Assembly (NCBI RefSeq): GCF_963675165.1
Contig: NC_087393.1
Coordinates: forward strand, 5,552,202-5,616,201
Direction of reading: 5' to 3'
Length of the DNA: 64,000 bases
Origin: Halichondria panicea
Taxonomy: Eukaryota; Porifera; Demospongiae; Suberitida; Halichondriidae
Part shown: one piece after another, positions 23,094 through 61,735 of the stretch
How positions within the stretch are numbered: position 1 is the first letter of the stretch
Layout of the letters: every line of letters starts with the position of its first letter
Program-made: the position numbers and the translations under genes
Notes under the pieces: generated by a model
The model's input: the letters and a program-made list of their open reading frames with translations, nothing else
The model's database searches: none
What the model was told of the DNA's origin: nothing

Positions 23094-28758
<5,665 letters not shown>

Positions 28759-37136: not shown

Positions 37137-39419
37137 ATGAGCTGTTTAAAGATGCTTTCTTTGGTTGCCATTGTTCTCACAACTCTGCAGCTCTCTTCAG
37201 GTGGGTTATTATACTAGCCAGCATCATGTCATGTACCATGGTCAACTAGAGATCAGCTTATTTACTGCGGTACTTGTTAGCCGGAATGTTATTCCAATTT
37301 AAGAGGTTATGATCGATGAGTTGCGAGAAACAACTGACTTAATTTATTTAGCCTGGTGGTACGTACATGTACCTCAAGGCTGTACGTACTACTGGATCGT
37401 AATAATAGAAACCTAGAATATATAGCTTATAATTATTATAGATATCCAATAATTGTACTCTATAAATAATTACATTGTTGTTACTGACTGCAGCTCAGGA
37501 CTGTGTCCGTGCTAACTCTGATGGAGCGGACAGTTTGCCTAGCTTTTCAGACCCAGGAGGAAATGCCCCTCGAATTGAAGTGAATCCGATCCAAGCCATT
37601 ATTAAAAGCTACGAGTTCCACTGCTGTGGGAAAGTTGGTGGTTGGGCTGCGTATGTGGAGCCTGGTGGTGGTGGTCATACTACTGCGTACTCAATAAAGT
37701 TCCAGATATGGAGGCCTATGGGGAACAACATGTTTATGAAAATTGGAGAGAATTCATTTCCTTCACTAACTCTGGGTGATGCTAGTCTCATTGAAGAAGC
37801 ACTAACCAACAGTGAACAACTTGACTTCCAACAAGGAGATGTAGTCGGCTACTATCTTGAAGACAGCAGCAACCAAAATGGAGGTGTGCAATTTGATACC
37901 GGGTTCACTTCTGAAGAGCTATGGTATGCGACTGGTAACCCTGACCTACAAACTGAGTGCTTACTGGAAGTGGGCAATGCAGGGGACCTCAGCATGTCTG
38001 CAAGCCTTGGACCAATCATCTCAATATCACTTAGTGAGTATAACCCATTGGCTTACATATAACTTTGCACATAAACATCACTATGTCTGTGTGATCAAAT
38101 TACTAGTGTACAGATGTGTATTCCAATGTATAATGAGTTACTGATACTTCCCTCACTATAGCAACCACTATTAATGATAACTGCCCCTCCACCTTCACCT
38201 CGACCATGTTCTGCCCCACTCCCACCTCCATCCCCACTGGACCTGGTACTCCAGTGGTTGTAGATGGTGAGTATGTTGAAAACATGCTCTGCTATAAAAC
38301 AGCCTTGTGTGATTTTGCGTGTGTATTATTATAGTGTTTGATAATAATGAAGGAAATTACCTGCTCATTAGAAGTGTGTCTAAATATATATTGTTTTGCA
38401 GACTGTCTGATGGCAACAGATGGCACCCACCCTCTACCAAACTTTGTCAGACCTGGTGGTGGGGGAGAGCCACGGTTTGAGGTGACACCAGTACAGGTCA
38501 TTATACCTAGCTACCAGTTCGACTGTTACGGACAAATCACCGAGTGGAAAGCATTTGTGGAAAGAAGTGGACGTGGACATTTTGGCGATCAGCCTTATTC
38601 CATTACTTTCCAAGTGTGGAGACCAAGCTCACCCCCTGATGGTCAATACACTATTGTTGGTCTTAATGATTTCTCACCCATTTTACTGGCTGATCCTGAT
38701 GTTGATAATGGCGTTAACCAAGGAATAGTGACTGGGGTACCACTAGAGAGTGAGAGGATTGAGGTCCAACCAGGAGATGTGGTCGGGTTCTATTTTTCAA
38801 GTAGTCGAGATGACGATAATGGTATCCAGTTTGCTAAACCTAGTGACAATGCAAGTCCGTATGCAGCAGAGACTGTTTGGTTTGGTTCTACTCGTTGTTC
38901 TACACTCGACCCACCTTGTGTGTATTCGGCTGGTGATTTCAGCGCCATGACTAACCTTGCTCCACTTATCACTGTGACAGTTAGTAAGTGACAATGTCTG
39001 TTTGTGTCATTCTTCATTCATTCATTCTGCTCAAATATCTATCCTCTCTTACAGTGAGCACTCCGACCATCCCATCCTCCATCCTACTGCCACAAGTCCC
39101 CTCCTCCACTAATGGTGTGTAAAACAGTCACTGTATTGTTCAAATTTGGCAAATTTTGTGAAACTCTTTTCGTGATCAGTATATTAATTAGCTACTGCCC
39201 TTTTAGCAAAATGATTCTTAACTCCCCAATTTTTGTTTTTTGCAGTGAATGCTCAGACCAGTTCATTCGCACCTCCCCCCTCAAGCACACCCCCTGTTGT
39301 CATGCCTCCTGTCTCCACACCCACCGCTGCTGCACCCCCCACTTCAACCCCCACCGTGATCTCTACGCCCCCTGTCTCCACATCCTCTGGTGTGGCTTTA
39401 TCCTCTATTGATTGCGATG
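37137..39419 (+). CDS. Signal peptide plus two ectodomain modules; no span or kinase found (open 3' end)
   Basis: Exons 37137-37200, 37494-38033, 38162-38266, 38402-38983, 39055-39114 and 39246-39419 join in frame (508 residues). The signal peptide MSCLKMLSLVAIVLTTLQLS is followed by module 1 (DCVRANSDG, YEFHCCGKVGGW, FQIWRP, QGDVVGYY), a Thr/Pro linker, module 2 ([36 protein letters not shown]) and Pro/Ser/Thr linkers. All internal exons are phase 1 to phase 1, and the last one ends in a good donor (gat g|gtgagt). I find no terminal, membrane or kinase exon before the next cassette at 41134. It could splice to ectodomain exons at 41254, 45355, 47234 or 48208, or directly to the stalk/span exon at 48894, all of which accept phase 1. 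Otherwise it is an incomplete duplicate. Confidence 0.7.
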
Positions 39420-40039
39420 GTGAGTCACACTACTAGTTAAGTCAGCCTTAGTTTAAGGGAGGTACTATACATGCTCGAATAGTGGCCAGGGGATTCCATG
39501 TATTGAGAACTGCCTTACAGCAGGGAACTTTTTACAAAGCATTATTTAGGCCTCTGTTTACTAAGCAACTTTCGCCTTCAGTTTAGGCCTCTATTAGGGC
39601 ATAATTTGAGCATTCGGATGTTTGCACAATTAAGCCAATACTATGCCTCTGGTTACTGTACATTCTTGTCAATGTTTCTTTGATTAGAGATTGCGATATT
39701 GAGTATATGAAGTTGTTTAATGCACAACGCATAGCCGTCAGTACAATCATCACGTCAGTACAATCATCACGCTATCAACTTCTCTTGAGATGCATACAGT
39801 TCTGGTAACTGGATTTATTCTATAGTGTACTTTGTTTGGTGTCAAGTGTACAGCTGTGATACATACAGCTGTGTTTATGGTTGTGGTTGGTGCAGTACAG
39901 TGATAGTGTTAGAGTGTACAATTCGACAACTCACAAGAAACAACTTTCAGTTTGTGTGGATACTATGGACATGCACACTGCAGGCAGTGTATAACATGTG
40001 GGAGCAACAGTAGTAAGAGGAGATGAATCCCAATGTCAT
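39420..40039. other. Gene-free stretch after the two-module gene
   Basis: No supported exon. A short direct repeat (cgtcagtacaatcatca, twice) lies near 39737-39770. I see no membrane or kinase exon here. Confidence 0.5.
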
Positions 40040-41030
40040 AGCTTGCCTTCCATGCATTTAGTGCACTGTGTCAGCATATACATGTACAGTTATTGTTAGT
40101 ACTCTTCCCCCATGCCATTCATGTGATGCTCACTGAAAGCTATACTTGTAGATCTACTTGGTAATAACTTCCTTTGGTGAGCTGAGCACCAACAGCCCCC
40201 ATGCAATCATTTAGTGTATCTATGTCACAGATTGTATTTAGCAAAAGAAATATATAGCTTATAAGGATTTCTCCGTGCAGTTTCTACTTGAATGATTGTG
40301 TCAGCCTATAGCGTGTGTGTATAGGTGGATTTTGATGTTCGACACTATCAGGCTATTGGTACTTTCAACATGACTTCTATTACCGTATCTCTTTGCTCAG
40401 CTACAAGTCTTGATGCTACATTTGCTATATCACACTCTTATCTACTCTTGTCAGTACCTATTGTAACGTTTACAACCTCCGTTGTTGTGTGCAGATGATT
40501 ATGTGTGCTCAACTGCTATGCTTCCTTAATTGTCAGAAGTAACCAACTTTTAGCTTTGTGTACATGTACACCTAGCTCTATGGACATGTACGTATGAATG
40601 CAACCTGTACATTCCTGTATGGTGGTATGGAGCATGTCAACAATGTGTGTGGAAGATCCCTAGTACACACCTTGCATGGTTGTTTGATTGGAGTGTGCAT
40701 GGGTATTAACTATGTGTACTGCTTGATATAAAATTGTAGGGAATCTGTTGCAAGGAAACTGTTATAGTGCACCTCTGTGTACTAGTACTACTCTGAGGCT
40801 ATATAATGATAGGTGTAGAAAATCAAATTCATAGCTAATGGCGGTTGAAATGGCTCCAGTGTATGTATCCAAGAGATCATTTTATGACTGCAGTGATGGT
40901 AAAGCCTCTCTACCAGATTCTGTGATACTTAGAAGTAATGGAAGCCACCACAATTACAGACAGACACATCATAGCACATTCTTTCAGTTAGTGTTTGGTT
41001 TCTTAATCAATTCCCTACTGTTGATATAGT
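40040..41030. repeat. Cassette spacer repeat, copy 1
   Basis: This is the first of four related stretches of about 1 kb (others from about 41885, 42857 and 45990). They share tttagtgcactgtgtcagca, cttcctttggtgagctgagc, gttgttgtgtgcagatgatt and, near the end, tggcggttgaaatggctcc. The last part, near 40890, reads like a degenerate start of the ectodomain exon (SDGKASLPDS). Together with the signal-peptide cassettes this marks a tandemly amplified unit. Confidence 0.75.
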
Positions 41031-41035
41031 ATAGT

Positions 41036-41133
41036 GCGTTATGATGACTTCTGTCCTTATAAGGCGCATTAGAAGTAGCTAGCTTATAATAGTAGCTATG
41101 ATATTCAGACACTAGCTGTGACAGTCGAACAAG
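41036..41133 (+). promoter_or_regulatory. Putative promoter of ectodomain cassette A
   Basis: Sequence before the ATG at 41134 (cttctgtccttataa, gaagtagctagctta, agctgtgacagtc) recurs before the ATGs at 47118 and, more loosely, 45235. A conserved upstream block for each cassette suggests separate transcription starts. Inference. Confidence 0.4.
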
Positions 41134-41841
41134 ATGTATGCCAAACTTTGCTTGCTGTTTATCTCCTGCTTCCTGTCTTGCTCTCAGACTAATGGTAGGT
41201 GGATGGTAGTGTGTGTGTGTGGATGGGTAAATCATGCAGCAATTCCTTTAAAGCTCAGCAATGTCTTCGTGCAACCAATGGTGACAGAGATCTACCAAGC
41301 TTTGTCAGACGAGGAGGTAGGGGAGAGCCACGGTTCGAGGCTGAGTCAATCCAAGCCATCATCACTAGCTATAGGTTCAACTGCTGTGGAGTGGTGACTC
41401 AATGGAGAGCATTTGTCCACAATAGTAATGATGATCACAGGAATGCCTATGACATCTCCTTCCAAGTGTGGAGACCCAACTCCCCCTCACCCGTGGACAC
41501 TGATGGCTGCTACACTATGCAAGGCACTAACTATTTCCCATCCATTCCACTGGGTGATCCTGACACTGACAGAGGAATAGTGACTGGGATACCACCAGAT
41601 AGTGAGATGATTGAGGTCCAACCAGGAGATGTGGTCGGGTTCTATCTGGAGAATACAATTAATCATGATAATGATGGTATCCAGTTTGCTAGAGATACGA
41701 GTCCGTACACTGATGAGACAGTTTGGTTTGCTACTGGTTCACTGACTCCTCGCCCTGAGGCAGCTTGCATGTATCCTGTCGGCACATCTGGTCTACTCAG
41801 TATCTCCACTAACCTAGCTCCACTCATCACAGCAACTGTGT
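41134..41841 (+). CDS. Ectodomain cassette A (signal peptide plus one module)
   Basis: Exon 41134-41194 encodes a signal peptide (MYAKLCLLFISCFLSCS) and exon 41254-41841 encodes one 196-residue module ([36 protein letters not shown], and a last Cys before LLSISTNLAPL). The module exon is phase 1 at both ends and finishes with donor t|gtgagt. Reading through the donor meets a stop after four codons, so intron retention would give a secreted protein. Splicing to the stalk/span exon at 48894 would keep frame. No kinase of its own. Either a secreted decoy, a variable first part of a longer transcript, or a duplicate in decay. Confidence 0.7.
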
Positions 41842-41884
41842 GTGAGTCATAGCTGTATGGACAATATGGGTATACATTCATGCA

Positions 41885-42820
41885 ATGTCAGCTTCCAAGC
41901 ATTTAGTGCACTGTGTCAGCATATACATGTACAGTTCTTGTTAGTACTCCCCCCATGCCATTCATGTGATGCTCACTGAAAGCTATACTTGTAGATCTAC
42001 TTGGTAATAACTTCCTTTGGTGAGCTGAGCACCAACAGCCCCCATGCAATCATTTAGTGTATCTATGTCACAGATTGTATTTAGCAAAAGAAATATATAG
42101 CTTATAAGGATTTCTCCATGCATTCTACTTGAATGATTGTGTCAGCCTATAGCGTGTGTGTATAGGTGATGATTATTGTTTGATTTTGATGTCATAGTTT
42201 TCGACACTATCAGGCTATAGATACTTTCAACATGACTTCTATTACCGTATCTCTTTGCTCAGCTACAATTCTTGATGCTACATTTGCTATATCACACTCT
42301 TATCTACTCTTGTCAGTACCTATTGTAACGTTTAAGTACGTTGAAACCCCCGTTGTTGTGTGCAGATGATTATGTGTGCTCAACTGCTACGCTTCCTTTA
42401 ATTGTCGAAGTAACCAACTTTCAGCTTTGTGTGTGCATGTACACCTAGCTCTATGGACATGTACGTATGAATGCAACCTGTACATTCCTGTGTGGTGGTA
42501 TGGAGCATGTCAACAATGTGTGTGTGTGGGAGATCCCTAGTACACCGTGCATGGTTGTGGTTGAGTGTGGGTATGTACTGCTTGATATAAATTGTAGGGA
42601 ATCTGTTGCAAGGAAACTGTTATAGTGCACCTCTGTGTACTGCTGGGGATCACAGTACTACTCTGAAGCTATATAATGATAGGTGTACAAAATCAGATTC
42701 ATAGCTAATGGCGGTTGAAATGGCTCCATGGAGTGTATCCAAGAGATTGTCTTATATCCAGTGCATAATGGTGAAGCCTCTCTACCAGACTCTGTGATAC
42801 TTAGAAGCCACCATGTAGCT
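41885..42820. repeat. Cassette spacer repeat, copy 2
   Basis: Closely matches copy 1 over most of its length (tttagtgcactgtgtcagca near 41900, gtgtgcagatgattatgtgt near 42358, ggcggttgaaatggctcc near 42711, and the degenerate ectodomain-like end near 42765). No supported exon inside. Confidence 0.75.
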
Positions 42821-42856
42821 GTATGGCATGGGCGTACAAATGTCATTTAATGCATT

Positions 42857-43960
42857 CCAATGTCGTAGCTTCCATACATTTAGTGCACTGTATGTTAGCA
42901 TAATTATACATGTATACAGTTCTGTTGTTAGTACTTCCCATGCCATTCTAACTTGGTAATAACTTCCTTTGGTGAGCTGAGCCCCAAAAGCCCCCAATCT
43001 GTGTATAAATGTCACAGATTGTAAGTACTATTAAATTTTTAGCAAAAGAAATAACAACAATAGTTTGTTAACTTGTAGGCTCAGTTTCTACTTAGACTCT
43101 TGCATGATTGTATAAGTCAACCATATAACTGTGGTTTTCTTTGATAGGTGTATTTGTTTGTTGTTGTTGTTGTTTTGATAGTTTCGACACTATCAGGATA
43201 TACGATTTCTATTACCGCAGGGGCGTAGCCAAGGGGGGTGCTAGGGGTGCTCGAGCACCCCCAACCAGTCTGAGTCAAGTATACAAATCACAGAGAAATG
43301 TATCTGATTATCCAGCTGAGCACCCCTTCTCTTCCAGATCTTGCTGCTGTTAGCTAGCTAGTATAGCAAGGAAAACGATTCAGTCTCTAAACTGTGAGGT
43401 ATTTTGGCTTAAATCTATAAACTAGTTCTCTTTTGTGATCGTGGCCAGCTTCTCTATGTAAATAAACGTTCAGCCACGCCCAACTTGGCAGATAAGTTAA
43501 TTATGACGCCATTAATAAGAGGTGTGGCTTCCGGTCAACCAAATTTCGGCGCTGCGTGGCTAAAAATCGGGCGCTTTGCGCCCTCTTTCATCTGTGATAG
43601 CACCCCTTTCTCCAAAATCCTGGCTACGCCCCTGTACCATATCTCTTTGTTCAGCTACAAGTCTTGATGCTACATTTGCTATATTTATCATACTCTTATC
43701 TCTCAGTACCTATATTGATTATTGTAAACGTTATGCAACCCTGTATGTGTTGGTGTGGTGTGCAGTTTAATGTGAGTGCGTAATTTGAAAACTCAACTGC
43801 TGTGCTTTTTTTTTTATTGTCAGAAGTAACCAACTTTCAGCTTTGTGTACATGTACACCTAGCTCTATGGACATGTACGTATGAATACAGCCTGTACATT
43901 CCTGTATGGTGGTATGGAGCATGTCAACAATGTGTGTGTGGAAGATCAACCTATAGTACA
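42857..43960. repeat. Cassette spacer repeat, copy 3, interrupted by a small transposon
   Basis: A more diverged copy (tttagtgcactgta near 42880, gtgagctgagccccaa near 42970, ctttgtgtacatgtacacc near 43841). It is split by the element at 43218-43634, which the other copies lack at the same place. A further related fragment, with the degenerate ectodomain-like stretch, lies near 44400-44530. Confidence 0.65.
43218..43634. mobile_element. Non-autonomous DNA transposon (about 417 bases) inside spacer repeat copy 3
   Basis: Ends are inverted repeats: caggggcgtagcca at 43218-43231 and tggctacgcccctg at 43621-43634. The paralogous copies (near 40380 and 42240) read continuously attaccgtatctc. Here tacc is found on both sides of the element, consistent with a short target duplication. 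No transposase is encoded. A degenerate match to its right end lies near 56255-56278. Confidence 0.8.
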
Positions 43961-44122
43961 CCTTATATAGATAATGTTTGCCATAAATACTGCAATCTGA
44001 TTGGTTAGAGGAAGTGTTCTAGAAAATCATGTACTTACTTAGACAATCAGACAACACTTATACAATCATGTAGCAAAGATTAGATAGAGCATTCAAGCTA
44101 GATACTCATGGTTGCTATGATC

Positions 44123-44248
44123 TAGACACTGTTTAGGTGATTTAGAAGTCCTCAGGGCTAGTAGAACCCTCACTGCGTTTGGAATACTACAACCTTGTAC
44201 TAACCTTTGGGCTTCTAAATCATGTAGAAACTTCCTAAACAGTGTCTA
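44123..44248. mobile_element. Short foldback element (126 bases)
   Basis: Inverted ends tagacactgtttagg and cctaaacagtgtcta are perfect over 15 bases, with further internal complementarity (gatttagaag, cttctaaatc). Non-coding. Confidence 0.7.
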
Positions 44249-44689
44249 ACTATTATGTACATGGCTATTGTGGTTGATAGCATTGAGTGGATATTAATTG
44301 TTTATAGGGAGTCAATAATTCTGTTAAACTGTTATAGTGTACTCTCTTCTAGTCTTCTCTTGCTTGCTTTGTCTGAGGCTATAATGATCAAAATCAGATT
44401 CATAGCTAACAGTGGTTGAAATGGTTCCAGTGTATCCAAGAGATTGTCTTATGGCCAGTGATGGTGAAACCTCTCTATCAGAATCTGTGATACCAGGGAG
44501 GAAGTAATGGAAGCCACCACCATTTCGGACAGATGTATCACAATTATAAGCACATCCTTTCGTTAGTGTTTTGTTTCAGAATCAATTTCATACTACTGTT
44601 ATAGTAGTGTTAGTGTTTGTGATGACTTCATAATAATAGTCCTTATATAAAGGCGCATGATCATTAGATAAAGTAGCTAGCTATTACCG

Positions 44690-44790
44690 TATAGCAGGTA
44701 ATTTTCGTGGGGGCAAAATGTTCGTGGATTTCGTGGTTAGCGACCTTACCTACCTTTACCTGCAGTGCAAGCAGAAAATATTACAAACGA
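44690..44790. repeat. Possible dispersed repeat fragment
   Basis: The stretch with accgtatagcaggtaatttt and cgtgggggcaaaatgttcg has the look of a dispersed element fragment. It is absent from the other cassette copies. I cannot place it in a named family. Confidence 0.35.
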
Positions 44791-45139
44791 AATGTCTCAA
44801 TTGCGTGCATTGATGTCATTAATGTGTGTACTGCATGGAAACTGTTATAGTGCACGTCTCTTCTAGTCTGCACTTGCTAAGTATTGTATACTGCTAATTA
44901 TTCATTAGATGAACACCATTTCATTAGTGTATTGTGTCAGTGTTGACTAATGGTTGTCAGTCAGACTATAACATGTATGCTTTTCTTTCGGTGAAAATCA
45001 GGTTGTTGGTTTTACATTCAATATGACTTCCTGGCATACAATGTTTTTGCAGATGATAGATTTGTATAGATTGTGGGCATGTTCTCAGTAAACCATTAGG
45101 TATGCTCGCCCATGCATAAATTAATTTATCATTGTTAAT

Positions 45140-45234
45140 TCATATAATGATGGCCCTTATAAAGATGGTCATGAGATTCTAAAATCTCAAAGCAGTAAGT
45201 TATAGTAGAGCTATAGCTGTGACAGTCAAACAAG
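45140..45234 (+). promoter_or_regulatory. Putative promoter of ectodomain cassette B
   Basis: Upstream block resembling those before the ATGs at 41134 and 47118 (cttataaa, agctgtgacagtc, caagatg). Inference from conservation. Confidence 0.35.
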
Positions 45235-45942
45235 ATGTATGCCAAACTTTGCTTGCTGTTTATCTCCTGCTTCCTGTCTTGCTCTCTGGCTAATGGTAGG
45301 TGGATGGTAGTGTGTGTGTGGATGAGTAAATCATGTACAGCAATTCCTTTAAAGCTCAGCAATGTCTTCGTGCAACCAATGGTAACAGAGATCTACCAAA
45401 CTTTGTCAGACCAGGAGGTGGGGGAGAGCCACAGTTTAGAGACAACCCAATCCAGGCCATCATCACTAGCTACAGGTTCGACTGCTGTGGAGTGGTCACT
45501 GAGTGGAGAGCCTTTGTGGAGGGCAGTGGTGATAATCGACGTAATGCATACACCATCTCCTTCCAAGTGTGGAGACCCAACTCCCCCTCACCCATGGACA
45601 CTGATGGCTGCTACACTATGCAAGGCAATAACCATTTCTCACCCATTCCACTGGCTGATCGCGACACTGATGACAGAGGAATAGTGACTGGGATACCACT
45701 AGAGAATGAGAGGGTTGAGGTCCAACCAGGAGATGTGGTTGGGTTCTATCTTGAGAGTAGTGACAATGGTGATGATGGTATCCAGTTTGCTAGAGATATG
45801 AGTCCTTACACTGATGAGAGAGTTTGGTTTGCTACTGATTCACTGACTTCTCGCCCTGAGGCAACTTGCATGTATCCTGTCGGCACATCTGGTCTACTCA
45901 GTTCCTCCACTAACCTAGCTCCACTCATCACAGCAACTGTTT
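45235..45942 (+). CDS. Ectodomain cassette B (signal peptide plus one module)
   Basis: Exons 45235-45295 (signal peptide MYAKLCLLFISCFLSCS) and 45355-45942 (196-residue module). It is nearly the same as cassettes A and C, with matching intron length, exon lengths (61 and 588 bases) and phases. Module landmarks: [36 protein letters not shown]. The donor t|gtaagt is strong. Read-through reaches a stop after four codons (CKS then stop), as in cassette A. The frame is open with no damage, which argues for recent duplication or selection. Same three interpretations as for cassette A. Confidence 0.7.
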
Positions 45943-45989
45943 GTAAGTCATAGCTGTATTATCAAGATGGGTACACAAATGCATCCCAT

Positions 45990-46990
45990 GCAATGTCAGC
46001 TTCCAAGCATTTAGTGCACTGTGTCAGCATATACATGTACAGTTCTTGTTAGTACTCCCCCCATGCCATTCATGTGATGCTCACTGAAAGCTATACTTGT
46101 AGATCTACTTGGTAGTAACTTCCTTTGGTGAGCTGAGCACCAACAGCCCCCAATCAGCTAGTGTATACCTAATATAATTTTATGTCGCAGTATTAACTGT
46201 TTAGCAAAAGAAATAACATACTTATAACAACAGTCAGTGTTCTTTTGTTAACTTAATTAGGCTTTCTCCAGTTTATGCTTAGACTCTGCATGATTGTAAG
46301 TCAGCCTATATAGCGTGTGGTGTGGTACGGTACATGATAATTGTTGCGTTTGTTTGATGTATAGTTTTCAACACTATCAGGCTATAGATACTTTCAACAT
46401 AACTTCTATTACCATATCTTTTTGCTCAACTACAAGTTTTGATGCTACATTTGCTATATCACACTCTTATCTACTCTTGTCAGTACCTATTGTAACCTTT
46501 AAGTACGTTGCAACCCCTGTTGTTGTGTGCAGATGATTGTGTGTGGGCAACTGCTATGCTTCCTTTAATTGTCAGAAGTAACCAACTTTCAGCTTTGTGT
46601 GCATGTACACCTAGCTGTATGGACATGTACGTATGAATACAACCTGTACATTCCTGTATGGTGGTATGGAGCATGTCAACAATGTGTGTGTGGGAGATCC
46701 CTATAGTACACCGTGCATGGCTGTTGTGGTTGAGTGTGGGTATTAATTATGAGTACTGCTTGATATAAAATTGTAGGGAATCTGTTGCAAATAATTCTAG
46801 GAAACTGTTATAGTACACTTCTCCTTCTATTGTATACTGCTGGGGATCACAGTACTACTCTAAGGCTATATAATGATAGGTGTAAAAAATCAAATTTATA
46901 GCTATAATGGCGGTTGAAGTGGCTCCAGTGTATGTATCCAAGAGATCATCTTATGACCGGTGATGGTGAAGCCTCTCTATCAGAATCTGT
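45990..46990. repeat. Cassette spacer repeat, copy 4
   Basis: Follows cassette B and matches copies 1 and 2 (tttagtgcactgtgtcagca near 46010, gttgttgtgtgcagatgatt near 46519, ggcggttgaagtggctcc near 46909). No supported exon. Confidence 0.75.
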
Positions 46991-47017
46991 GATATATATA
47001 CTGTTGATAGTAGTGCG

Positions 47018-47117
47018 TTATGATGACTTCTGTCCTTATAAAGAAATGATTATTAGAAGTAGCTAGCTTATAATAGTAGCTATGATATTCAGACACTAGC
47101 TGTGACAGTCGAACAAG
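47018..47117 (+). promoter_or_regulatory. Putative promoter of ectodomain cassette C
   Basis: Almost identical to the block at 41036-41133 before cassette A (cttctgtccttataa, agctagcttataatagtagc, agctgtgacagtcgaac). Inference. Confidence 0.4.
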
Positions 47118-47821
47118 ATGTATGCCAAACTTTGCTTGCTGTTTATCTCCTGCTTCCTGTCTTTCTTTGTGGCTAATGGTAGGTGGATGGTAGTGTGTGT
47201 GGATGGGTAAATCATGCAGCAATTCCTTTAAAGCTCAGCAATGTCTTCGTGCAACCAATGGTAACAGAGATCTACCAAACTTTGTCAGACCAGGAGGTGG
47301 GAAAGAGCCACGGTTTGAAGATAATCCAATCCAAGCCATCATCACTAGCTATAAGTTCGACTGTTGTGGAGTGGTCACTGAGTGGACAGCCTTAGTGGAG
47401 AAAAATGATGAACCTGATGCATACACCATCTCCTTCCAAGTGTGGAGACCCAACTCCCCCTCACCCGTGGACACTGATGGCTGCTATACTATGCAAGGCA
47501 CTAATGATTTCTCACCCATTTCACTGGGTGATCGTGACACTGCCAGAGGAATAGTGACTGGGGTACCACAAGTGAGTGAGAGGATTGAGGTCCAACCAGG
47601 AGATGTGGTCGGGTTCTATCTGGAGAGTAGTGACAGTAGTGATGATGGTATCCAGTTTGCTGGAAATGGAGACAACTCTAGTCCGTACACTGATGAGACA
47701 GTTTGGTTTGCTACTGGTTCACTGAGTTCTCGCTCTGAGGCAACTTGCATGTATCCTGTCGGCACATCTGGTCTACTCAGTTCCTCCACTAACCTAGCTC
47801 CACTCATCACAGCAGCTGTGT
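47118..47821 (+). CDS. Ectodomain cassette C (signal peptide plus one module)
   Basis: Exons 47118-47178 (signal peptide) and 47234-47821 (196-residue module: [36 protein letters not shown]). It ends with donor t|gtgagt in phase 1. Only 200 bases separate it from the first exon of the complete RTK at 48022, so splicing past that exon to 48208 or 48894 is feasible and keeps frame. Unlike A and B, read-through of the donor stays open for about 45 codons of low-complexity intronic sequence. No membrane span or kinase of its own. Confidence 0.7.
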
Positions 47822-48021
47822 GTGAGTCGTTTGTGAAAACCATGGATATACAATGTCATGTGGTCCATGTTAAGTGTACAATTAGCCAAATAGCTAGATT
47901 TCCAATGCGCATTCTCTCCCAAATAAGCAAAAACCCACTTCCTGTGTTTTTGGCTTAAATATCCCACAACAATTGGCTAGCTCAGATATCATGTCAGTAG
48001 CTCATAGGAAAACGAACAACC

Positions 48022-51000
48022 ATGCAAACAAGTAATCTAGTTCTGTGTCTTAGTTTCTTATGTCTGACATCAAATGGTGAGTTGAGTTGAAAATAAGGCT
48101 TCTAGCTATATAAGCTGTAGCATTTCTAGTTATAGGTGCTCCATGCAATGCAGCTCAGTTCCTAAGCAGTCTCCTAATATTCTTGCAACTACCATTATAC
48201 CTTATAGCCCAAGAATGTCTTCTGGCTAGTGATGGAACCAGATCTCTACCAAACTTTGTCAGACCAGGAGGTAGGGAAGAGCCACGGTTTGAAGATAATC
48301 CAATCCAAGCCATCATCACTAGCTATAAGTTCAACTGTTGTGGAGTAGTCACTGAGTGGAGAGCCTTTGTGGAGGGAAGTGGTCGTGGGCACGTTGCTGA
48401 TCAGCCCTACACCATCTCCTTCCAAGTGTGGAGACCCAACTCCCCCTCACCCGTGGACACTGATGGCTGCTACACTATGCAAGGCACTAACCATTTCTCA
48501 CCCATTCCACTGGCTGATAGAATAGTGACTGGGGTACCACCAGATAGTGAGAGGATTGAGGTCCAACCAGGAGATGTGGTCGGGTTCTATCTTAAGAGTA
48601 GTAGAGAAGATGATGATGGTATTCAGTTTGCTAGAGATCAAGATAATGAATCAGAATATGATAGTGAATCAGTTTGGTACGCTACTGGTGATGTCACTAG
48701 TGGTGGTCAAACTTGTCTATTTCCAGTCGGCACAGGAAGAACTCTCAGTTTGTTTACTAACTTAGCTCCACTCATCACTGCAACTGTTTGTGAGTCAAAA
48801 ATCAATCACAAATCCCTCAAAAGATGCGCTCATGCAATTTGTCATTTTGTATTAAAGCAAAACTTAACATGTGATTTCTTTCCTCCTCTACAGCATCCAT
48901 GGCTTGCCCGGTGTCATCAACTGCCACAACTTCCACAATGATGGTGCAACGAACTCCCCTGGGTACTCCCGCCCCCACCCCCACTCCTTCCCCCTCCACC
49001 ACCTCCACTTCTGACTCCACTTCCGACTCTACCTCCACCACTGACTCCACCTCCACCACCACCACTGAGTCCACCTCCGAGCCCCCTCCTGACACTAATG
49101 CTGCTACAACCACACAAGCTCCCCCTGCTCAGACTAGTGGAAACAGTGGCCTAATCGTAGGGTTTGTGGTGGCTCTACTAGTCATTATTGTAATTGCTGT
49201 GTCGGCCATTGTGATTGTTGTGGTCATCATGAAGAGGAGGCAGAGCAAGCAAGGCAGTATGGACACCACCGCATGGTCCAACCCAAGCTATGAAGATCGT
49301 GAGTTGCTACATTGATTAGTGCTTTGTTAACATTACATATTTACTATTCAACTTTACTGTTAATTGGCTCTAGGCCGTGATATTCATTTCACACAACAGT
49401 TGGTACTAACTATTGTGAAGCTCTAGCAGTAAGCACTAAAGCCCCTCTCTATAGTGATAGTGCAAAGCCCCTCTCTCTAGTGCAAGCCTGGCCTGTTATT
49501 AACTTTCCCATGCATGCTATTTGCATGCTATCATTTCCTGGCACAATTTTCAAACAACCTTGGCAACGTCAATCACAACAGTGAATGCCTCTATCTGCCT
49601 GCATGCAAGAGCCTAGTGTTGCCATTGGTAATGACTATACAATCTCACACGCTCACACACACAGCTGCGAACATTACCAAACCAACAAAGAAATCGAAGC
49701 AGAAGCCTAAAGCCAAGCCACTGGTGCTCAACGTGAATGGAGACAACTCAGTGTACGATGTTATAGGGGGTGACTATGAGGGAATCCCCCCAGCACTGGA
49801 CTACACCTACCCCACACCCTCACCCACTGTGAAATATAATCGTAAATCGGAAGAAGTGTTTGTTTCTGATGGAAAGGGAGGAGCAGCGTATCACGATCAG
49901 GGACCCGATGTTGGGAATGTGTATGACTATTGTGGCAATGGATCAGTTTATCACACGTTGGAGTCCAGTGGTCAGTACGAGGACCAGGAGGAGTCTAATC
50001 AATACGAGGCTCCAACTCTACCAAAGTTTAGGGTAAGTACTTGGCTTTGTACAGACATTCTTGTAATTGACACCAAATACATGTAAGCTGGATTCCCTTT
50101 GAAGCATTGTGTTGTCACCATCTTTAGCTGCACTGTTAGTAGGTGGTAATTGTCTCTAATCAAATGTTGTGTTCTAGTGAACACATTGCTAATTGTGTCA
50201 TTCAATCTCATCTGTTCCGTTTATCAGAAGAGCACTCTCAAGAACAGTCCATTTGATGGCCATGGCACCTACGTACCCACACTGGTGAGCAGCTGTACCT
50301 AGCAAAGCCACTGGAAATACGTGTTTATGGAAATGTGTTTAAAAATATGTGTACTGATATCTTGATTCCACATTCTGCACACATGTGTTAATGTATCTAC
50401 CCCCATGCATGCATGCAGGCACAGCGCCAGATCATGGGGGCTCACTATGAGTTGCAGGAAGGAACTGAAAGTGTAAGCCTCGATGATAATATTAGTGTAA
50501 CTGTACCAGTGATTGAGACAATTACTCACGGTGTTATGTGTTGACTGTGTGTGTGTGATTGTTGTGATGGTCTCCTTGGGTGACCTAATGTGTAGTGTGG
50601 GAGACAGTCTGCACTTCTGGCAGACACGGGTAGTAACATAATGAAACACAACATCTGCAGTGAAATAGCACGATTGTGATCTTCATTGTGTAGTTGACAT
50701 GCCACTAATTTGTATTTCTATGATCTACAGACACAAACATACAACACTCTCAACTTCTTTGTGGAGGATCAGGTATTCTGGGCCCCTGCTGACACAGCTA
50801 ATGACCTCTATCAGCAACTGGCTAGTAAGAAGTACCGGGAGATCCCTCGCACGGAAGTCACGTGAGTCCAGTCCCTCTATTTCTGTATAGTAATTATTGT
50901 TATGTATTTATTATTTGATTACTCATTCCCCCATCCACACATATACGTATTTAGTATCCTGGAGCAGTTGGGCTCTGGTCAGTTTGGACAAGTGTGTAAG

Positions 51001-53408
51001 GGCATATGGTCCATCTCTGGCAACTCTCTACAGCTGGCTGTAAAGACGCTCAAACCAGACGCTCCCTCAGGAGACAAAGTCAAGTTCCTCCAGGAGGCGG
51101 CCATCATGGGCCAGTTCCTGCATCCCAACGTGGTCAAGCTGTACGGAGTGGTCACTGTGGGGGAACCAGTGAGTGGGGCTGGCATGATAGTCGTGTATTC
51201 AACCACATGTTTTGAAAGGCCGTAACTTTAGTTATGATGGTCCAATGTCAGATTTTCTGAAAGCCTGAAGTGAGATTTTTCAAATGATGGGTTAAAATCA
51301 AAGGTCTATTTTGGGGGTGATTTCGGCAAAAAACCATGGTCTATAGGTGGGGGAAAAATCCAAAATTTGATCCGATTATAAAATCTGAGCTGAACATACC
51401 TTCTGAAAGAGCTCGCTGAGAGCTTTCAGAAAAGCATAAATTTTTTGAAATTGGACCAACTAATCAAAAGTTATGGGCAATTAGCTATAGAGTGTCCAGA
51501 CTTATTGTATGATGTCATGCATGCGATAAGTCCAACTATCCGTATATGAGGTTGTTCTGTTTACTACTGCAATAGTGGCCCCATCCCGTGTGGTCTGGCC
51601 AAGCACTGTGGTTGAGTGCATAATGACCAGTAGCTACATATGGCCACCTATTGTGTGGGACTACACTATGTTTAAGTAGCTAGGCCCATATAACAACACA
51701 CTTTAGTTCTGTCTTCTTAAAATAGGCTTCGTCCATTGCCAACAACTAGTGTAAGTAAGAAGCTGTGTATGGCCCACACACCACTATGTTTGGTTCTCTA
51801 TTTGTATTCATTCTATTGTCCATGTGTTGCATGGTATGAGTGAGTGTTGCTTGTGTACAGGTGATGATATGCCTCGAGATTATGTCTAATGGAGATCTCA
51901 GAAGTTACCTCAGAAGCATTGATGCTGGGTAAGTGAGTGTTCATCATTATTGTGGTCAACCTCTAGCCAGATATCCCATAGCTCAACCTGTGTTTCAATA
52001 CGCCACCTCTTTATTGCAACCACTGTGTTGGTCTACCCAACGATTATCCCGGCTATGTAGTAGGGTTCACTGTACTTATACGCATTATTGTAGTCTTATG
52101 TCACCCCATAATTATAGTCTTGTTTAGTAAATCACTATAGCTATACATTGTAATGTCTCTCCATTCAGTTCCAGCTCTTCAAGAAGCTCGCACGATCTTC
52201 AACTCTTGTTTCTGAGATTTGCCAAGGAGATAGCTGCTGGGATGGAGTATCTCTCAACCAAAGCGTTTGTGCATCGTGACCTAGCTGCCAGGAATGTGCT
52301 CATCAATGAAGCTCTGTCATGCAAGGTACACACATTAGTACAAACAACTGTTATTGGCAGCTCTAAACCTGTTGCTAAAAAACAACCGTTGCTAGTAGCA
52401 ACAGTTAAGTGGTTTTGGCTACCGCCTGCTATTCTGCATTGAGCAACTATAGAGCATATTGTGTAGAGATAACATAAACACTGTATTATGCTGACAGTGC
52501 AATCGCATACTGTGTACACATTTATTGCTAGCACTTCAATTATTTCATATTGCCGGGATAGATTGGAGACTTTGGAATGGCCAGAGATCTGATGGATGAT
52601 ACCTACTACACTTCAAAGGGAGGCAAGATCCCTGTCAAGTGGACTGCACCAGAGGTACATAGCCTCTCATATAATGAACCTGCCAAAAGTGGTCCATAGC
52701 TACTGTTAAGTCTTAGTGCACCATTGCTTAAGATAATTGAACGCCCAGAAGAGAAGAAAAGTTGTATTTATTAACTAGCTCTTAGGAAGCCCTATCAGAT
52801 AGTGTCTTATGATCAGCATTTTTATGTATTTAACTACCGGTATATCCATACACTCATGCAGGCTCTCTTGTACAAGAAGTACTCTACAGACAGTGATGTA
52901 TGGAGCTACGCAATGGTGCTGTTTGAGATATGGTCTGTTGGTCAGAAACCATTCTCCATGCATACCAACAACGAGGTCCTCAAGCTCATACAGAGTGGGC
53001 ACCTCCAGGCCCCACCCCCGGGATGCCCCCGGGAAATATACAAACTCATGGTCGACTGCTGGTAAGTGGAGTAGTAAACACATTTTTACTTTTAGTTTTT
53101 GTAAATAATCAGCCAACATAAATTATGATTGAGTACGTATGTCAAGACTTGGTAAAAAGTACAGCCATGTAGATTTCAGTGTAGATTGTCTGTTTTGTCA
53201 TTTCCATAGGAACCCTGAACATCAGTACCGACCTAAGTTTGGTGAGATCAGCTCTCAGCTCCGTGCCCCTGCCACTAAGCTGCTCTACTGGTCTGCTCAA
53301 GACAGCAAGCTCTCAGAAGGGGCGGCTGTACTCGGAGCATCGCTGGAGGAGGGATACAAGCTGCACGACGATTTGAGAGAGAAATACAAACAATATGAAT
53401 CCATTTGA
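48022..53408 (+). CDS. Receptor tyrosine kinase with one ectodomain module; possible constant part of the cassette cluster
   Basis: Complete 860-residue RTK. Exons: 48022-48076, 48208-48789, 48894-49298, 49665-50032, 50228-50284, 50419-50472, 50731-50861, 50955-51168, 51861-51928, 52169-52325, 52562-52654, 52862-53061, 53210-53408. Signal peptide [19 protein letters not shown]; a module very close to cassettes A-C ([24 protein letters not shown]); Ser/Thr/Pro stalk; span at about 298-323 followed by MKRRQSK; NPSY (49280-49291). Tyr sites include VYDVI, YEGIPP, VYHTLES and QYEAP. The juxtamembrane block (FWAP...KYREI) precedes a kinase starting near 551 with [23 protein letters not shown] and WTAPE, all intact. 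The intron other members have after NNE is missing, so 52862-53061 is one fused exon. The 692-base intron 51169-51860 holds a dispersed repeat. Confidence 0.88.
51215..51480. repeat. Intronic dispersed repeat
   Basis: The text ggccgtaactttagttatga, gaaagcctgaagtgagat and atgatgggttaaaatcaaa recurs in diverged form in introns near 13553-13640, 25845-26020 and 34640-34780, always in the same orientation as the host genes. Non-coding; family unknown. Confidence 0.6.
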
Positions 53409-56290: not shown

Positions 56291-58949
56291 ATGGAAACTG
56301 GAATCAAAGGTATTGCTACATACTTGGTTGACTATAAGTATGTACTCTAGTCTACAAGTTTTAAACCCTTAGTGTAAGTCTTATGTATGTGCTGGTGTAT
56401 ATACTTGGCACACTACTCATTACATGTCATTGAATGTGTGTCCTTTGCATGCAGTAGAGACATCAAGGCGATGCACACCGCTGGGCCAAAGATGTCAGCT
56501 CCATCTCAACCTCTTCATTGTTGCCTTCATGCAACTACTACTGGCCATCATATTTTCCACTCCTATCTCATCATTCTACCTCTTTGTGACAAGTCAACCT
56601 CCATCCTCTAACAACACTGACGAGATTGTGAGTGGCTCAGTTGATTGTTCGAAACCTCCCTCAGGCTCCCTGTCACACACACCACACTCACCACACTCAC
56701 CACCCACACCACACTCACCACCCTCACCCACCACCCACACACATGCAGGTGGATTGGCAGGGCCTGGGGCAATCAGACACCTTCTACTCCTGGGTCATAA
56801 CACTCCTTGGAATAGCCATCCTCTCCACTTCTCTGGTTCTAATGTGTCTACCATTCCTTTCATTTTTTCGAGTTTTGATGGTGTTCAATTTTCTCATCCT
56901 TATCACAAGTGGTCTCACCTATGCATTAGCGTTCAGACCCTGGGTCATCTTGGCTTCATATTGTATTCGTGGTGTTGGATTCAGCATGTCCGAAGTGTTG
57001 GTGATAGGTTACATCAGTGTCACTCCCAGATTACTGCCTCGGGTGGACAACAAGAGAAGAATAAAATCTACGTTCAGTGTCAAGGACAGATATCTTGCAA
57101 TTACCCTCATGTTTCGAGCAATTGGGTGGCCCATAGGACTAGGTTAGTTGAAATGTACGGTGACTGTACACTATAGTTAGTGTTTTCAAATACACTCTTC
57201 AAAGTTGCACAAGTTTCTAAATTGCAATTTCATGATTGCAGGTATTGCAGCGCTGATGGCACAGTACAGGGACACAGTGGACCAGTTTCGATGGCCAGGG
57301 TGGGCTAACGCAACAGTTAGTATTCTGTATGCATTTATCTTCTTCATCACGTTTCGTAAAGTGGAGAGTGGTACTGCCAAAGCTGGAGAAGGGAGATCTA
57401 CTACAACATGGTGTCACTGTCAGTGTGTGTTCTTCAAGGACCATCTTTCTACAGACAAAATGAAGTCAACGCTCAAGAAAATACGACTAAGAAATGTCTT
57501 AGTAAGTATCCCTAAACACAACGAAGCATAATCCATAAAGAAAATTGACAGGCTATATATACCACGTACATGTGCTGTGCGTCCTAGTGTAATTAACCAT
57601 GCAGCTATAGAAATACAATTTTCAATGTCTTCTTTCCCAATGTATAGGTGTGCGTGTACCTGGCTTTGTCTGGGCACCTAATGACGTCCACTGGCTCTAT
57701 CCTCGGCACCCTCGTACCTCCCATCCTTAGTGACCACTTTGGATTTGATATTGACTTCATCTCTTACTTTACACTCGGTGTCTTGGCTACTTCATTCGTT
57801 GGTGCTATAATACTGTGAGAACAATGGAGCTGATCTAATAGACTAGCGTGCATGTTCGTCTGATGCAGTATAACACCATACTTGTCTAAGACATTGTCTT
57901 CCATGTTGTGCTAGAATGTATGCACCTGAATGCACAATAATTGCTCTATTTTCCCTACATAATTTATATAGGATTGTCCTAAAATGCCTGAGGGTGAACA
58001 ATCGTTATTTGTTTGCTGTGGTACTTGCAGCTAGTATATGCGGGACTGTTCTGGCATCTGATTGGCAGGCTATTGGCGAGGATCCATGTACATTGTCAGG
58101 TTTCAATTCAAGCCAGCATTTTGAACCACCTGAAGCTCTGTCTGAGCTAAGAGATGTGTGCTTGTCTCAGAATGGAGATTGTTACTGGAACCAAGATTCA
58201 GAGCTGACAGGAACTTATTGCTCTCTTTGTCGGCCAATATGTCGCTCAACTTCCATGACCATCAACCTTGCTCAGTTCTGTGTAGCAGTGGTCCTGATTC
58301 ACCTGTCCGGACTAATTGGTTGGACGGCCATTTTGGGAGTGGCCACAGACTACACCCCTCATCACCTTCGGGTGAGTACACTAGCTTGTCTAATTCACCT
58401 GGTTCCCATGCACCGGGCCTCATAATGTGTACTTACAATGATGTTTGTCAAATTACTGGTTTTTCTGTAGAGTGTGGTTGTTGCACTAATGTTCATGATG
58501 GATGGTGCTTCATGGCTGCTAACACCTCTGTGGAGTAAGTTGCATGACAATGCTAATAATTATAAAGATTAGTGGCAAGTCTCTTTAGTGATATGTCTTA
58601 GTGGTGTTCCCTTAATGGCGTCCACCATGGAAGCTGGGCATAATAAAATTAGTATGCAGCCAGTCCCAAATCCTAGCCCTCAATATAATGCAAGTTTCAA
58701 CTCATGTTAAATAACAAGCCCACCTAATTATCTAACATACAACCACTGTTGAGAAAGCACTGATGTCGATGCTCCCGTATTCTAACACTACCCCCTCACA
58801 CACATGCAGGTATCTCCATATATAACCTGGTAGGCAGACGGACGTTTGCACCAATGTCAGTGTGGAGTGGGATGCAGCTGGTCAGTCTCATCGGACTACT
58901 GCTGCTCTACAAACTGTTGGGACCTATCAAGAAGCCACAAATGACTTAA
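56291..58949 (+). CDS. Twelve-span membrane protein, MFS-like, copy 1
   Basis: Exons 56291-56309, 56455-56627, 56749-57142, 57242-57501, 57648-57814, 57972-58371, 58471-58534 and 58810-58949 join in frame to 538 residues. The short first exon (METGIK) is supported by a matching one in copy 2 (METEPAIK). About twelve hydrophobic spans are visible, for example LNLFIVAFMQLLLAI, WVITLLGIAILSTS, FNFLILITSGLTYAL, VLAASICGTVLA and LVSLIGLLLLY. The sixth and seventh are split by a cytosolic-looking loop with WCHCQCVFF. A Cys-rich loop (CTLSG, CLSQNGDCYW, CSLCRPIC) lies between late spans. Number and spacing suggest a major facilitator superfamily transporter; the substrate and exact family are not recognised. 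It lies after the RTK array and is unrelated to it. Confidence 0.78.
56672..56745. repeat. CA/CACC simple repeat in an intron
   Basis: cacacaccacactcaccac-type run in the intron 56628-56748. The paralogous intron at 62068-62179 has a shorter version, so the tract length differs between the two gene copies. Confidence 0.9.
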
Positions 58950-59152
58950 ATTTATGCCTGATTTTTTATTTCTTCAACAATTGGTGCAATAATTAAATGA
59001 TGTGTCACAAATTTGTCAAGATGAGATGACGTGTAAAAAAATAATGCAAATTGCTTAAGAATTGTGTGAGTTTTTGCATAATTATTATTATTTTCGGTTA
59101 ATGATTAGATGGGCGTGACCGTCTAATCGACAGGTGCAAGGCCAAGGGAAAC
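58950..59152. other. 3' flank of MFS-like copy 1
   Basis: AT-rich sequence between the stop codon at 58947-58949 and the transposon end; no gene seen. The matching flank of copy 2 lies beyond the window. Confidence 0.5.
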
Positions 59153-61728
59153 CATAGGGGTAGGAAGATGTTTTACCTAAGGGGGGCAAACAATATGTTA
59201 TACCAATATCACTGAGACACAATTTAAAATTCTCCAAAATATCTTTGTCTTCTAGAATTAACAGAAATAAAATCCTTCGCTATAGCTAATAAATCTATCC
59301 TGTCTGTCCTATGTTTGTGTACATAAAGCAAAAAAAGATTGTTAAGTCTACATTCAGTCATTGTGCTCCTCAAGAATGTTTTGAGCCTTCGCAGTGCTGA
59401 AAACGATCTTTCGGCTGAAGCTGTTGTTACAGGGAAGGTAAAGTACAATGAGAGTAGCATAAACACTTCAGACAGCATTTTCTTGTAAATATGATTGCTA
59501 TTAATCGCTTGAGCTATAGTCCTTATATTTGTCACAGTTGTTACTTGTGGAGTAGCTTGCTTAACCATATCAGCAACTAGTGCAAGATGTGTACACAAAC
59601 GTTTCAAATCAAAGTCCTTCTCAAGGAAACTTTTTACGGAGGGAGGAAGGATCTCAATATCATATGGTCTTCCATTTGCAGCATTCAGCAGGAGTATTTC
59701 AATTTCTTTTATAATTTTCATATCTTTCTGATCAAATCTTCTATCGATCTCACCTCCAGCAAGTTCTAGTACTTCATAATACGCACGTCTAAACCTTGAC
59801 TTAGGGTCTGTGTATTGGTGTGCAGTACTTCCAGTATTATACCTCTTGGGTAATTTCCTTTGGCGAGGCAATTTGGGCTCTTCAGTGAAATGCTTGCTTT
59901 CCTCACATACTGAACTATAAAACTGATCAAATTTAGATTCAGTCCGAAGAGCTTTTAGGTGGGATGCAAGTAGACTAGCACCTGTAGTTGCTTCCTGAAT
60001 TGTTAGGTCCACTGCTTGCAAGTTAATGGACAACTGCTCAGAAGCAGAAAATACCAAGTAAGCAAGTTTCAGTGCAAAGTACGTGTCAAAGCATTCCATA
60101 CGCCCAAGTAGACCGTTGGCTTTTGCTGCGTACTCATCATGGCCTTTCTGAATAATTTCCAAAGCATCAATCAACACCTGATAATTTCTCAAGATAGAAT
60201 TTATAGCAGTATGACGAACAGTCCAGCGTGTGGGACAAAGCACTCTCAGTGATGGAGTACTCCCATCTCCTTGTAGAGCAATATCTTTACGGAGTGAATC
60301 GAACAAGGATAGCCGCTTGGGAGAAAAGCGTATGAGCTGTACAAGATTGTATATGAAATCCATTACATTCCTGACCAGTTCAGATTTGTTTGTAACATCT
60401 TTGAGGACGAGATTAAGATTATGAGCTAAGCAATGAACATACAATGCCTCAGGAACTTCAGATTTCATTAGGGCTTGTACACCATTTCTTATCCCACTCA
60501 TTGTAGAAGCACCGTCGTATGCTTGACCTCGTATTGAACACAAAGGTAAGGTACATCTAATTAGAATGTCCTTGATAGCAGAGAAAACAGTACAGGCTTT
60601 AGTATCAGGTAATTGAAACAATCCTAATCCATCTTCATGAACATTTAGATCTTCATCAATCCAGCGAACAGAGAGACACATTTGCTCTTGGTGGGATACG
60701 TCAGTGGCTTCATCAGCTAAGATTGAATAAAAACGACTCTCTTTCACATGTGACAGTATATCTCTAAGTACAAACTGCCCCATTTTGGTAATAATTTCAT
60801 TCACAATCTCGGGCGAAAGATAATCACGCTGTTTAAGCCATCTCAGCATTTTTTTATCTTCTTCAGCCCTAAGTAGAAGAAGTTGGGCTAGATTTCCTTC
60901 AGGATCATCACCGTCATGTTTTCCACGAAGAGGCAATCCTTGTCTTACAAGGAACTTAATGGTAGAGAGTAGTTTCATAAGCATTGTTCTATGATAAAGT
61001 TGATCAGTTGCAAGCTGTGTGCTCAGCAGAGTGTCTACCCTCACACCTGTAGATCTCTTCAGCACAACTTCTTTATGCATGTTACTATCTTCGTGAGCAC
61101 GAAACCTGTCTATGGCTTTCTTAAAATTGTTGAAACCATCTTCCACGAATGCTGGCTGATACTTCCTTGTAGGAGTCACACTCAGCAAATTGTTTGCCTT
61201 AGCAGCTCTGCACAAATAGCAAAATATTTTCCTATTTTCTGAACACACAGTTATCCATGGGTAGAGCTCATACCATCTCGTCAAAATAGGTCTCTCATCC
61301 TTCACAGCTGGTAGCTGAGGTTGAAAAGGAATGTTAATGTCTTTACACCCCTGGCAATTGCAAGCAGCTTGGGTACTCGAAGCTTCAGACTCTATGGGTA
61401 TAAAACATTCTCATTAAATCATGTCACTACATAGCTGTAAGGCTAGAGAGCATTGTCAATTTGAGCAAGCTGTTTAAGCTAGATAGCTACATTTAAGCTT
61501 ATACTGGGGCTATAATTCACTTACCTGCTTGATCCAAAGAAGCACTGGTAGTACTACTGTCAGACAGACTTGAAAAAGTAATCTTGGCCTGATACATTGT
61601 TATTTTTGCCACATGCTCACAATATTTTTTCAATTAGAGAGCAGTGCTGGCTAAGGGGGGCGAAAAAGCAAAATATTTGGCTGAGGGGGGCAACTGCCCC
61701 CCTTGCCCCCCTGGTTCCTACGCCTATG
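59153..61728 (-). mobile_element. hAT-family DNA transposon, apparently full length
   Basis: Inverted ends cataggggtaggaa (59153 onward) and, at the right, ttcctacgcctatg (ending 61728) match at all but one position. Inside each end are G-rich subterminal stretches (aaggggggcaaa on the left; ctgaggggggcaactgcccc on the right). It carries one intact transposase gene on the - strand. The flanks show only a short gaaac match on both sides, so an 8-base hAT target duplication is not clear and the exact ends may be off by a few bases. Confidence 0.75.
59224..61597 (-). CDS. hAT transposase with TTF-type zinc finger
   Basis: On the - strand, exon 1 is 61597-61525 (ATG, MYQAKITFSS) and exon 2 is 61391-59224, joined in phase 1 to give 746 residues with no stop or frameshift. 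The N-terminal part has a TTF-type zinc-finger pattern (W..C...KIFCYLC ... GFNNFKKA..RFRAHE.S.MH). The middle matches the DUF4371/RNase H-like core seen in hAT and ZMYM1-like proteins, with candidate catalytic Asp residues in SILADEATDVS and GQAYDGASTMSG. The C-terminus has the hAT dimerisation motif (TTASAERSFSALRRLK, RLNNLFLLYVHK). It would excise and insert the element. The alternative, a domesticated ZMYM1/ZNF862-like gene, is less likely because inverted ends flank it closely. Confidence 0.85.
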
Positions 61729-61735
61729 GAAACTA

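Follow-up and report, generated by a model that had tools for sequence, protein, structure and literature searches.

A candidate variable/constant array of ectodomain cassettes upstream of a receptor tyrosine kinase

What becomes of receptor ectodomain exons that end at well-kept splice donors and have no membrane span of their own? The question is raised by a 64,000-nucleotide stretch of DNA (C17:5552202-5616201, hereafter the window, part of a 131-Mb genome of 39 contigs that was searched as a whole), which contains a row of receptor tyrosine kinases (RTKs) with differing ectodomains, and in which kinase-family matches were found. The genome belongs to an animal, to judge from Wnt (10 exon matches to PF00110), and perhaps to a sponge. 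Upstream of D, the last RTK of the row, lie a two-module gene, M, and three short cassettes, A, B, and C. Judged from sequence, M, A, B, C, and D may form a small variable/constant receptor array, in which alternative heads would be spliced to one kinase part, a reading that we hold at a little less than an even chance.

Layout of the units and of the constant exons

D has 13 exons (48022-53408; 860 amino acids plus a stop) and carries a signal peptide, ectodomain, span, and tyrosine kinase domain in a single gene, as the definition of an RTK demands; signal peptides, here and below, were called by eye without a predictor. In each of the cassettes A, B, and C, a signal exon of 61 nt is separated by 55-59 nt of intron from an ectodomain exon of 588 nt; both exons are open, and the latter ends at a phase-1 donor (GTGAGT in A, GTAAGT in B, and GTGAGT in C). 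M runs from a signal exon through module 1, a linker, module 2, and a second linker to a stalk exon, and ends with GATG/GTGAGT at 39419. The first-pass annotation had described M and the cassettes as possessing a signal exon, an undamaged ectodomain, and a good phase-1 donor without a span, and this description holds. The features, all on the + strand, are as follows.

37137-37200, +, gene M, signal exon, leaving phase 1
37494-38033, +, gene M, module 1, leaving phase 1
38162-38266, +, gene M, linker, leaving phase 1
38402-38983, +, gene M, module 2, leaving phase 1
39055-39114, +, gene M, linker, leaving phase 1
39246-39419, +, gene M, stalk, leaving phase 1 (whole gene, 37137-39419, without a membrane span)
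40030-41133, +, upstream block of A, with a TATA-like CCTTATAA at its end (by eye) and a conserved ATG context
41134-41194, +, cassette A, signal-peptide exon
41254-41841, +, cassette A, ectodomain exon, phase 1-1
41892-42807, +, upstream block without a cassette, 89% identical to 40047-40935
42850-44682, +, upstream block, broken, with insertions
45235-45295, +, cassette B, signal-peptide exon
45355-45942, +, cassette B, ectodomain exon, phase 1-1
46000-47117, +, upstream block of C
47118-47178, +, cassette C, signal-peptide exon
47234-47821, +, cassette C, ectodomain exon, phase 1-1
48022-48076, +, D's own signal exon
48208-48789, +, D's own ectodomain exon
48894-49298, +, constant exon 1, encoding the stalk and transmembrane span, with a pyrimidine run of 15 nt at its acceptor
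49665-53408, +, other constant exons, for the juxtamembrane region and tyrosine kinase

Downstream of M, A, B, and C, D offers the only in-phase span that was found. We scanned for acceptors rich in pyrimidines that lead into a phase-1 frame encoding a 20-residue segment with a mean hydropathy of at least 2.0. The scan found no span exon on the + strand in the gaps 39420-41133, 41842-45234, 45943-47117, and 47822-48021, nor on their - strand, taken as a control, and it recovered the D stalk and span exon at 48894-49298 as a positive control. The idea of a span exon hidden behind a cassette thus found no support in this phase-1 scan of the four gaps. Within 1.5 kb downstream of the ectodomain, the peak 20-residue hydropathy in any open frame of 35 codons is 1.95 for the second module of M (M2), 1.76 for A, 1.88 for B, and 0.87 for C, compared with 3.64 for D.

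The units stand in tandem upstream of one set of constant exons. Each has a translation start of its own, and their donors are in frame with the first constant exon. When joined to D exons 3-13, M, A, B, C, and D each give one open frame, so that the exon at 48894 does accept phase 1, as had been proposed along with D's being the sole span available. The acceptor at 48894 is itself exceptional. Its 15-nt pyrimidine run is the longest before any of the 4126 AG dinucleotides on the + strand of the window, the longest among 4528 on the - strand being 14 nt. The run does not exceed 7 nt at 17 other measured acceptors of M and A-D, a set that leaves aside the two M linker acceptors, or 9 nt at the stalk acceptors of eight related receptors from cluster clP (see below).

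The upstream sequences of A-C were also said to be conserved, and we found eight genome matches to 40030-41133, the query included, all within the window. Since one such block has no cassette and another is broken, units are evidently born and lost. Within the broken block, an insertion at 43220-43640 has ggggcgtagcca-like inverted ends and appears by eye to be a small DNA transposon.

If the units do share D's constant exons, each upstream unit would start its own transcript, presumably from its own promoter, encoding a signal peptide and one hypervariable ectodomain (two modules in the case of M). The short introns inside the cassettes would be removed locally, and the phase-1 donor of the cassette would then seek 48894 and be joined by long-range splicing to the strong acceptor there. 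The resulting receptors would differ in their heads, which might bind different ligands, and would have their stalk, span, and tyrosine kinase in common.

The ectodomain family elsewhere in the genome

Of 50 genome matches to the B ectodomain, 49 lie on contig C17, and we read four clusters there: clP (4600001-4660000), about 1 Mb from the window, clN (4503001-4573000), clR (5216001-5236000), and clS (3462001-3470000). The receptors of these clusters have the same module (at most 85% amino-acid identity to B), the same phase-1 ectodomain donor, and a similar stalk start, the stalk exon beginning 47-62 nt past the ectodomain exon in eight clP copies. Unlike M, A, B, and C, however, they have their own span followed by tyrosine-rich tails with NEAY-like motifs. 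Within 1.5 kb after the ectodomain, a 20-residue segment with a mean hydropathy of at least 2.0 was found in 10 of 10 cases in clP, 7 of 7 in clR, and 14 of 18 in clN, where some matches may be due to chance because the scan accepts any open frame of 35 codons; the remaining four clN ectodomains have another module within 166-426 nt. By the same scan, none of the four units M2, A, B, and C has a span of its own. Since the usual order among the relatives is ectodomain, stalk, span, and tyrosine tail, the units of the window are the exception. The clN counterpart of M contains a span inside the matching stalk exon, and most simply M has lost it.

Elsewhere in the genome, nothing matches the D stalk and first juxtamembrane exon at E 1e-8, and the six kinase exons of D gave no tblastn match at E 0.01 in clP, clN, clR, or clS. 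The seven tandem ectodomain copies of clR are spaced by about 1.5 kb, and each has a span and a tail in which NNAY-like tyrosine units are repeated. Another array was seen at C4:2640001-2700000, where the ectodomains are of a single family different from that of A-D; a span comes after them, then a kinase in some receptors and a tyrosine-rich tail in others, the two kinds lying side by side.

The module itself lies outside Pfam, B giving a single row at E 0.15, under the cut-off, and a search of PDB sequences with the ectodomain alignment profile gave nothing up to E 1. Nor was any relative confirmed in bacterial and archaeal genome contigs or in viral contigs. A structure model of middling confidence (predicted local distance difference test, pLDDT, 65, as compared with 46.7 for the first model; predicted template modelling score 0.73) gave a best Z of 10.3 in a fold search, with rows for phage fibre, CBM-like, PHR, and SUN domains, and Foldseek returned no match with E under 0.001. 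On these models, the fold searches would point only to a common beta-sandwich class, a jelly-roll or carbohydrate-binding-like sandwich being one candidate. Whatever the splicing, the data show an ectodomain family outside Pfam that is hypervariable in its loops and attached to kinase or tyrosine-rich tails. In the window, the RTK ectodomains near 2231, 6196, 10172, 10775, 11375, 20142, and 29560 align weakly with the A-D module (17-26% identity to B), the alignment centring on a common 'WRP ... GDVxG' pattern, and most kinases of the row may share one ectodomain superfamily. Past D, at 56373-63950, two near-identical genes for multi-pass-like membrane proteins flank a 728-aa open reading frame (ORF) on the - strand (59224-61410), which we take to resemble a hAT-type transposase.

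Constraint and ancestry of the cassettes

To judge from their sequences, A-C are not visibly decaying, as indicated by the lack of stops, the in-frame gaps, and diversifying selection in the loops. The ectodomain exons differ at 69 of 585 positions (A-B), 68 of 579 (A-C), and 50 of 579 (B-C) with no stop in any, for which a rough neutral estimate gives a chance of 0.037. The gaps (3, 3; 9, 6, 3; 9, 6, 3) are in frame in 8 of 8 cases, counted over three pairwise alignments whose pairs are not independent, as compared with 13 of 47 in the block alignments. M is constrained too, with nonsynonymous to synonymous rate ratios of 0.27 and 0.50 against its clN counterpart.

Diversifying sites were detected with a self-written codon-site model (M1a versus M2a on a fixed FastTree topology). 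A set of 11 sequences gave a likelihood-ratio statistic of 109, and a set of six gave 83; the value was 40 once codons lying no more than two from a gap had been removed, 67 for seven clP copies by themselves, and 18.5 for A, B, and C by themselves. At sites picked from clP alone, the A-C pairs show a nonsynonymous difference (pN) of 0.33-0.42, in contrast to 0.06-0.09 elsewhere (Fisher p 1e-5 to 5e-8). The variable loops lie at B residues 22-29, 55-63, 95-103, and 136-152. By hand count on the middling-confidence model, not one of 20 numbered variable sites falls in a predicted strand, where about six would be expected; four further variable sites fall in gaps of B and are not among the 20. 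Outside the variable sites, purifying selection on the A-C pairs is slight (pN 0.06-0.09; synonymous difference, pS, 0.10-0.14), which leaves room for relaxed constraint.

The intron between signal and ectodomain exons differs at 0 of 55 positions (A-C), 1 of 57 (A-B), and 1 of 55 (B-C), and is less diverged than the synonymous sites of the ectodomain (p 0.006 for A-C, 0.005 for A-B, and 0.07 for B-C). This contrast is likely due to gene conversion, acting either between the cassettes and other receptors or on the 5' part within the set of cassettes. In the nucleotide tree, A, B, and C form a clade (0.909) apart from D, which groups with P10, P21, and P43 (1.000), and the distant receptor P41 stands beside A-C without support (0.053). 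In the protein tree, A goes with P31 (0.916), and B and C with P41 (0.853). Recombination likely explains this disagreement. The idea that A-C are plain copies of D's first two exons is not favoured, given the separate clade and the higher nucleotide identity to P41 (86.9-90.5%) than to D (78.0-80.7%). C and D have identical tracts in common; these need not mean conversion and may be framework, since the tracts of D in common with P31 and P18 are longer.

Known designs and rival explanations

The first-pass annotation had likened the locus to clustered protocadherins. These have the same tandem variable units upstream of one constant set (PMC7811963, PMC8787164), and to that extent the comparison stands. 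The protocadherin variable unit, however, is one large first exon that includes the span (PMC7811963), whereas a cassette here has two exons, and hence an internal 3' splice site, with the span in the constant part; the single-exon architecture is not that of A-C. A better analogue, and the closest in design, is chelicerate sDscam-alpha, in which tandem 5' cassettes of two exons (a leader and one ectodomain module), each with its own promoter, are spliced to constant exons with a span (PMC4835542). Neighbouring sDscam cassettes can combine, and the intron after a cassette can be retained (PMC4835542). The sDscam modules are immunoglobulin modules, to which the ectodomain here is unrelated, and no kinase is attached to them; their promoters and splicing have been demonstrated (PMC4835542), those of the present candidate array being predicted. 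UGT1 likewise has tandem variable units with positively selected hypervariable regions and common constant exons, but its units are single first exons and encode enzymes, and gene conversion, which is likely here, is described as not prevalent (PMC1885805).

We lean toward heads sharing D's kinase part because no in-phase span precedes 48894 and the joins to D exons 3-13 are in frame; because the relatives bear their own span and the four upstream units do not; because the cassettes have neither stops nor frame-breaking gaps and their diversifying sites fall at the variable loops of the family; because the 48894 acceptor is exceptional and D's stalk and first juxtamembrane exon are unmatched elsewhere; and because sDscam provides a precedent. 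To this extent, the earlier proposal of several ectodomains served by one constant part gains from anatomy, frame, the want of any other span, coding constraint, and the acceptor.

Several points weigh against it. The ectodomain acceptors of the cassettes (pyrimidine runs of 7 nt in A, B, and C; 4 nt in D) are no weaker than D's ordinary ones (3-7 nt), so that their skipping is not guaranteed, and local removal of the short introns followed by a join to 48894 is therefore plausible, not compelled. The joins would need introns of 1072, 2951, 7052, and 9474 nt, compared with 93-692 nt for D's own, and D's upstream region has no visible likeness to those of A-C. In the 60-kb receptor array on C4, read by eye, a span follows 9 of 9 ectodomain-like ORFs and no second array of heads without spans was seen. 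Finally, the cassettes may owe some of their intactness to gene conversion, and recombination or conversion inflates site-model tests.

The same acceptors fit a transcript that starts at an upstream promoter and splices ectodomain to ectodomain, placing one to several modules on D's kinase. All ectodomain exons are phase 1-1, A-B-C-D plus the constant exons make one open frame of 1450 aa, the later signal exons would be skipped because they have no acceptor, M shows that two-module genes exist, and sDscam varies its module number by this route (PMC4835542). We nevertheless think such concatenation quite unlikely, as the intact signal exons and similar start contexts of A, B, and C suggest separate starts, the two modules of M are joined through a linker exon rather than directly, and the strongest acceptor is that at 48894. 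The units could also yield secreted decoys, soluble heads competing with the receptors, if the ectodomain donor were left unused and the intron kept. As was noted before, read-through of A and B ends within four codons (VCES and VCKS, each followed by a stop); M stops after a few codons, and retention behind variable cassettes occurs in sDscam (PMC4835542). In C, however, read-through is longer, to a stop ending at 47961 and about 46 codons on at most, and the good preservation of the donors in all four units would be pointless for decoys. The first AATAAA or ATTAAA past the read-through stops lies at +1177 (A), +2897 (B), +890 (C), and +3595 (M), a weak and uninformative test of separate 3' ends because just three of eight kinase genes have one within 500 nt. 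We regard decoys as unlikely.

Partial duplicates without a product, held similar to working receptors by gene conversion, would account for the block that has lost its cassette and, through conversion from elsewhere, for synonymous sites that have diverged further than the intron. Such partial copying is seen in the window, where 19896-21032 nearly copies the ectodomain-and-span part of 23199-24329, with no kinase exon match between the two copies and kinase exons after the second from 27140. But the signal exons and splice sites of the cassettes are kept, the reading frames carry no stop and only in-frame gaps, and nonsynonymous change is concentrated at the variable sites of the family, so that we consider dead duplicates quite unlikely too.

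Variable/constant arrays are already known from vertebrates (protocadherins and UGT1) and chelicerates (sDscam). The limited literature searched yielded neither an array of this kind on an RTK nor on-point work on hypervariable sponge receptors. If a shared constant part is indeed used here, it would be a separate origin of the variable/constant device, in an animal that is probably non-bilaterian, and one that feeds an RTK. On a tentative view, to which we give rather less than even weight, an early-branching animal would diversify an RTK with hypervariable heads of a kind that distant tyrosine-tailed receptors also bear. Promoter choice and long-range splicing would attach these heads to a single kinase, and cells could thus differ in their heads while sending the same signal. 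Such an array would be a tangible candidate for the recognition of self and non-self, or of microbes, in that animal.

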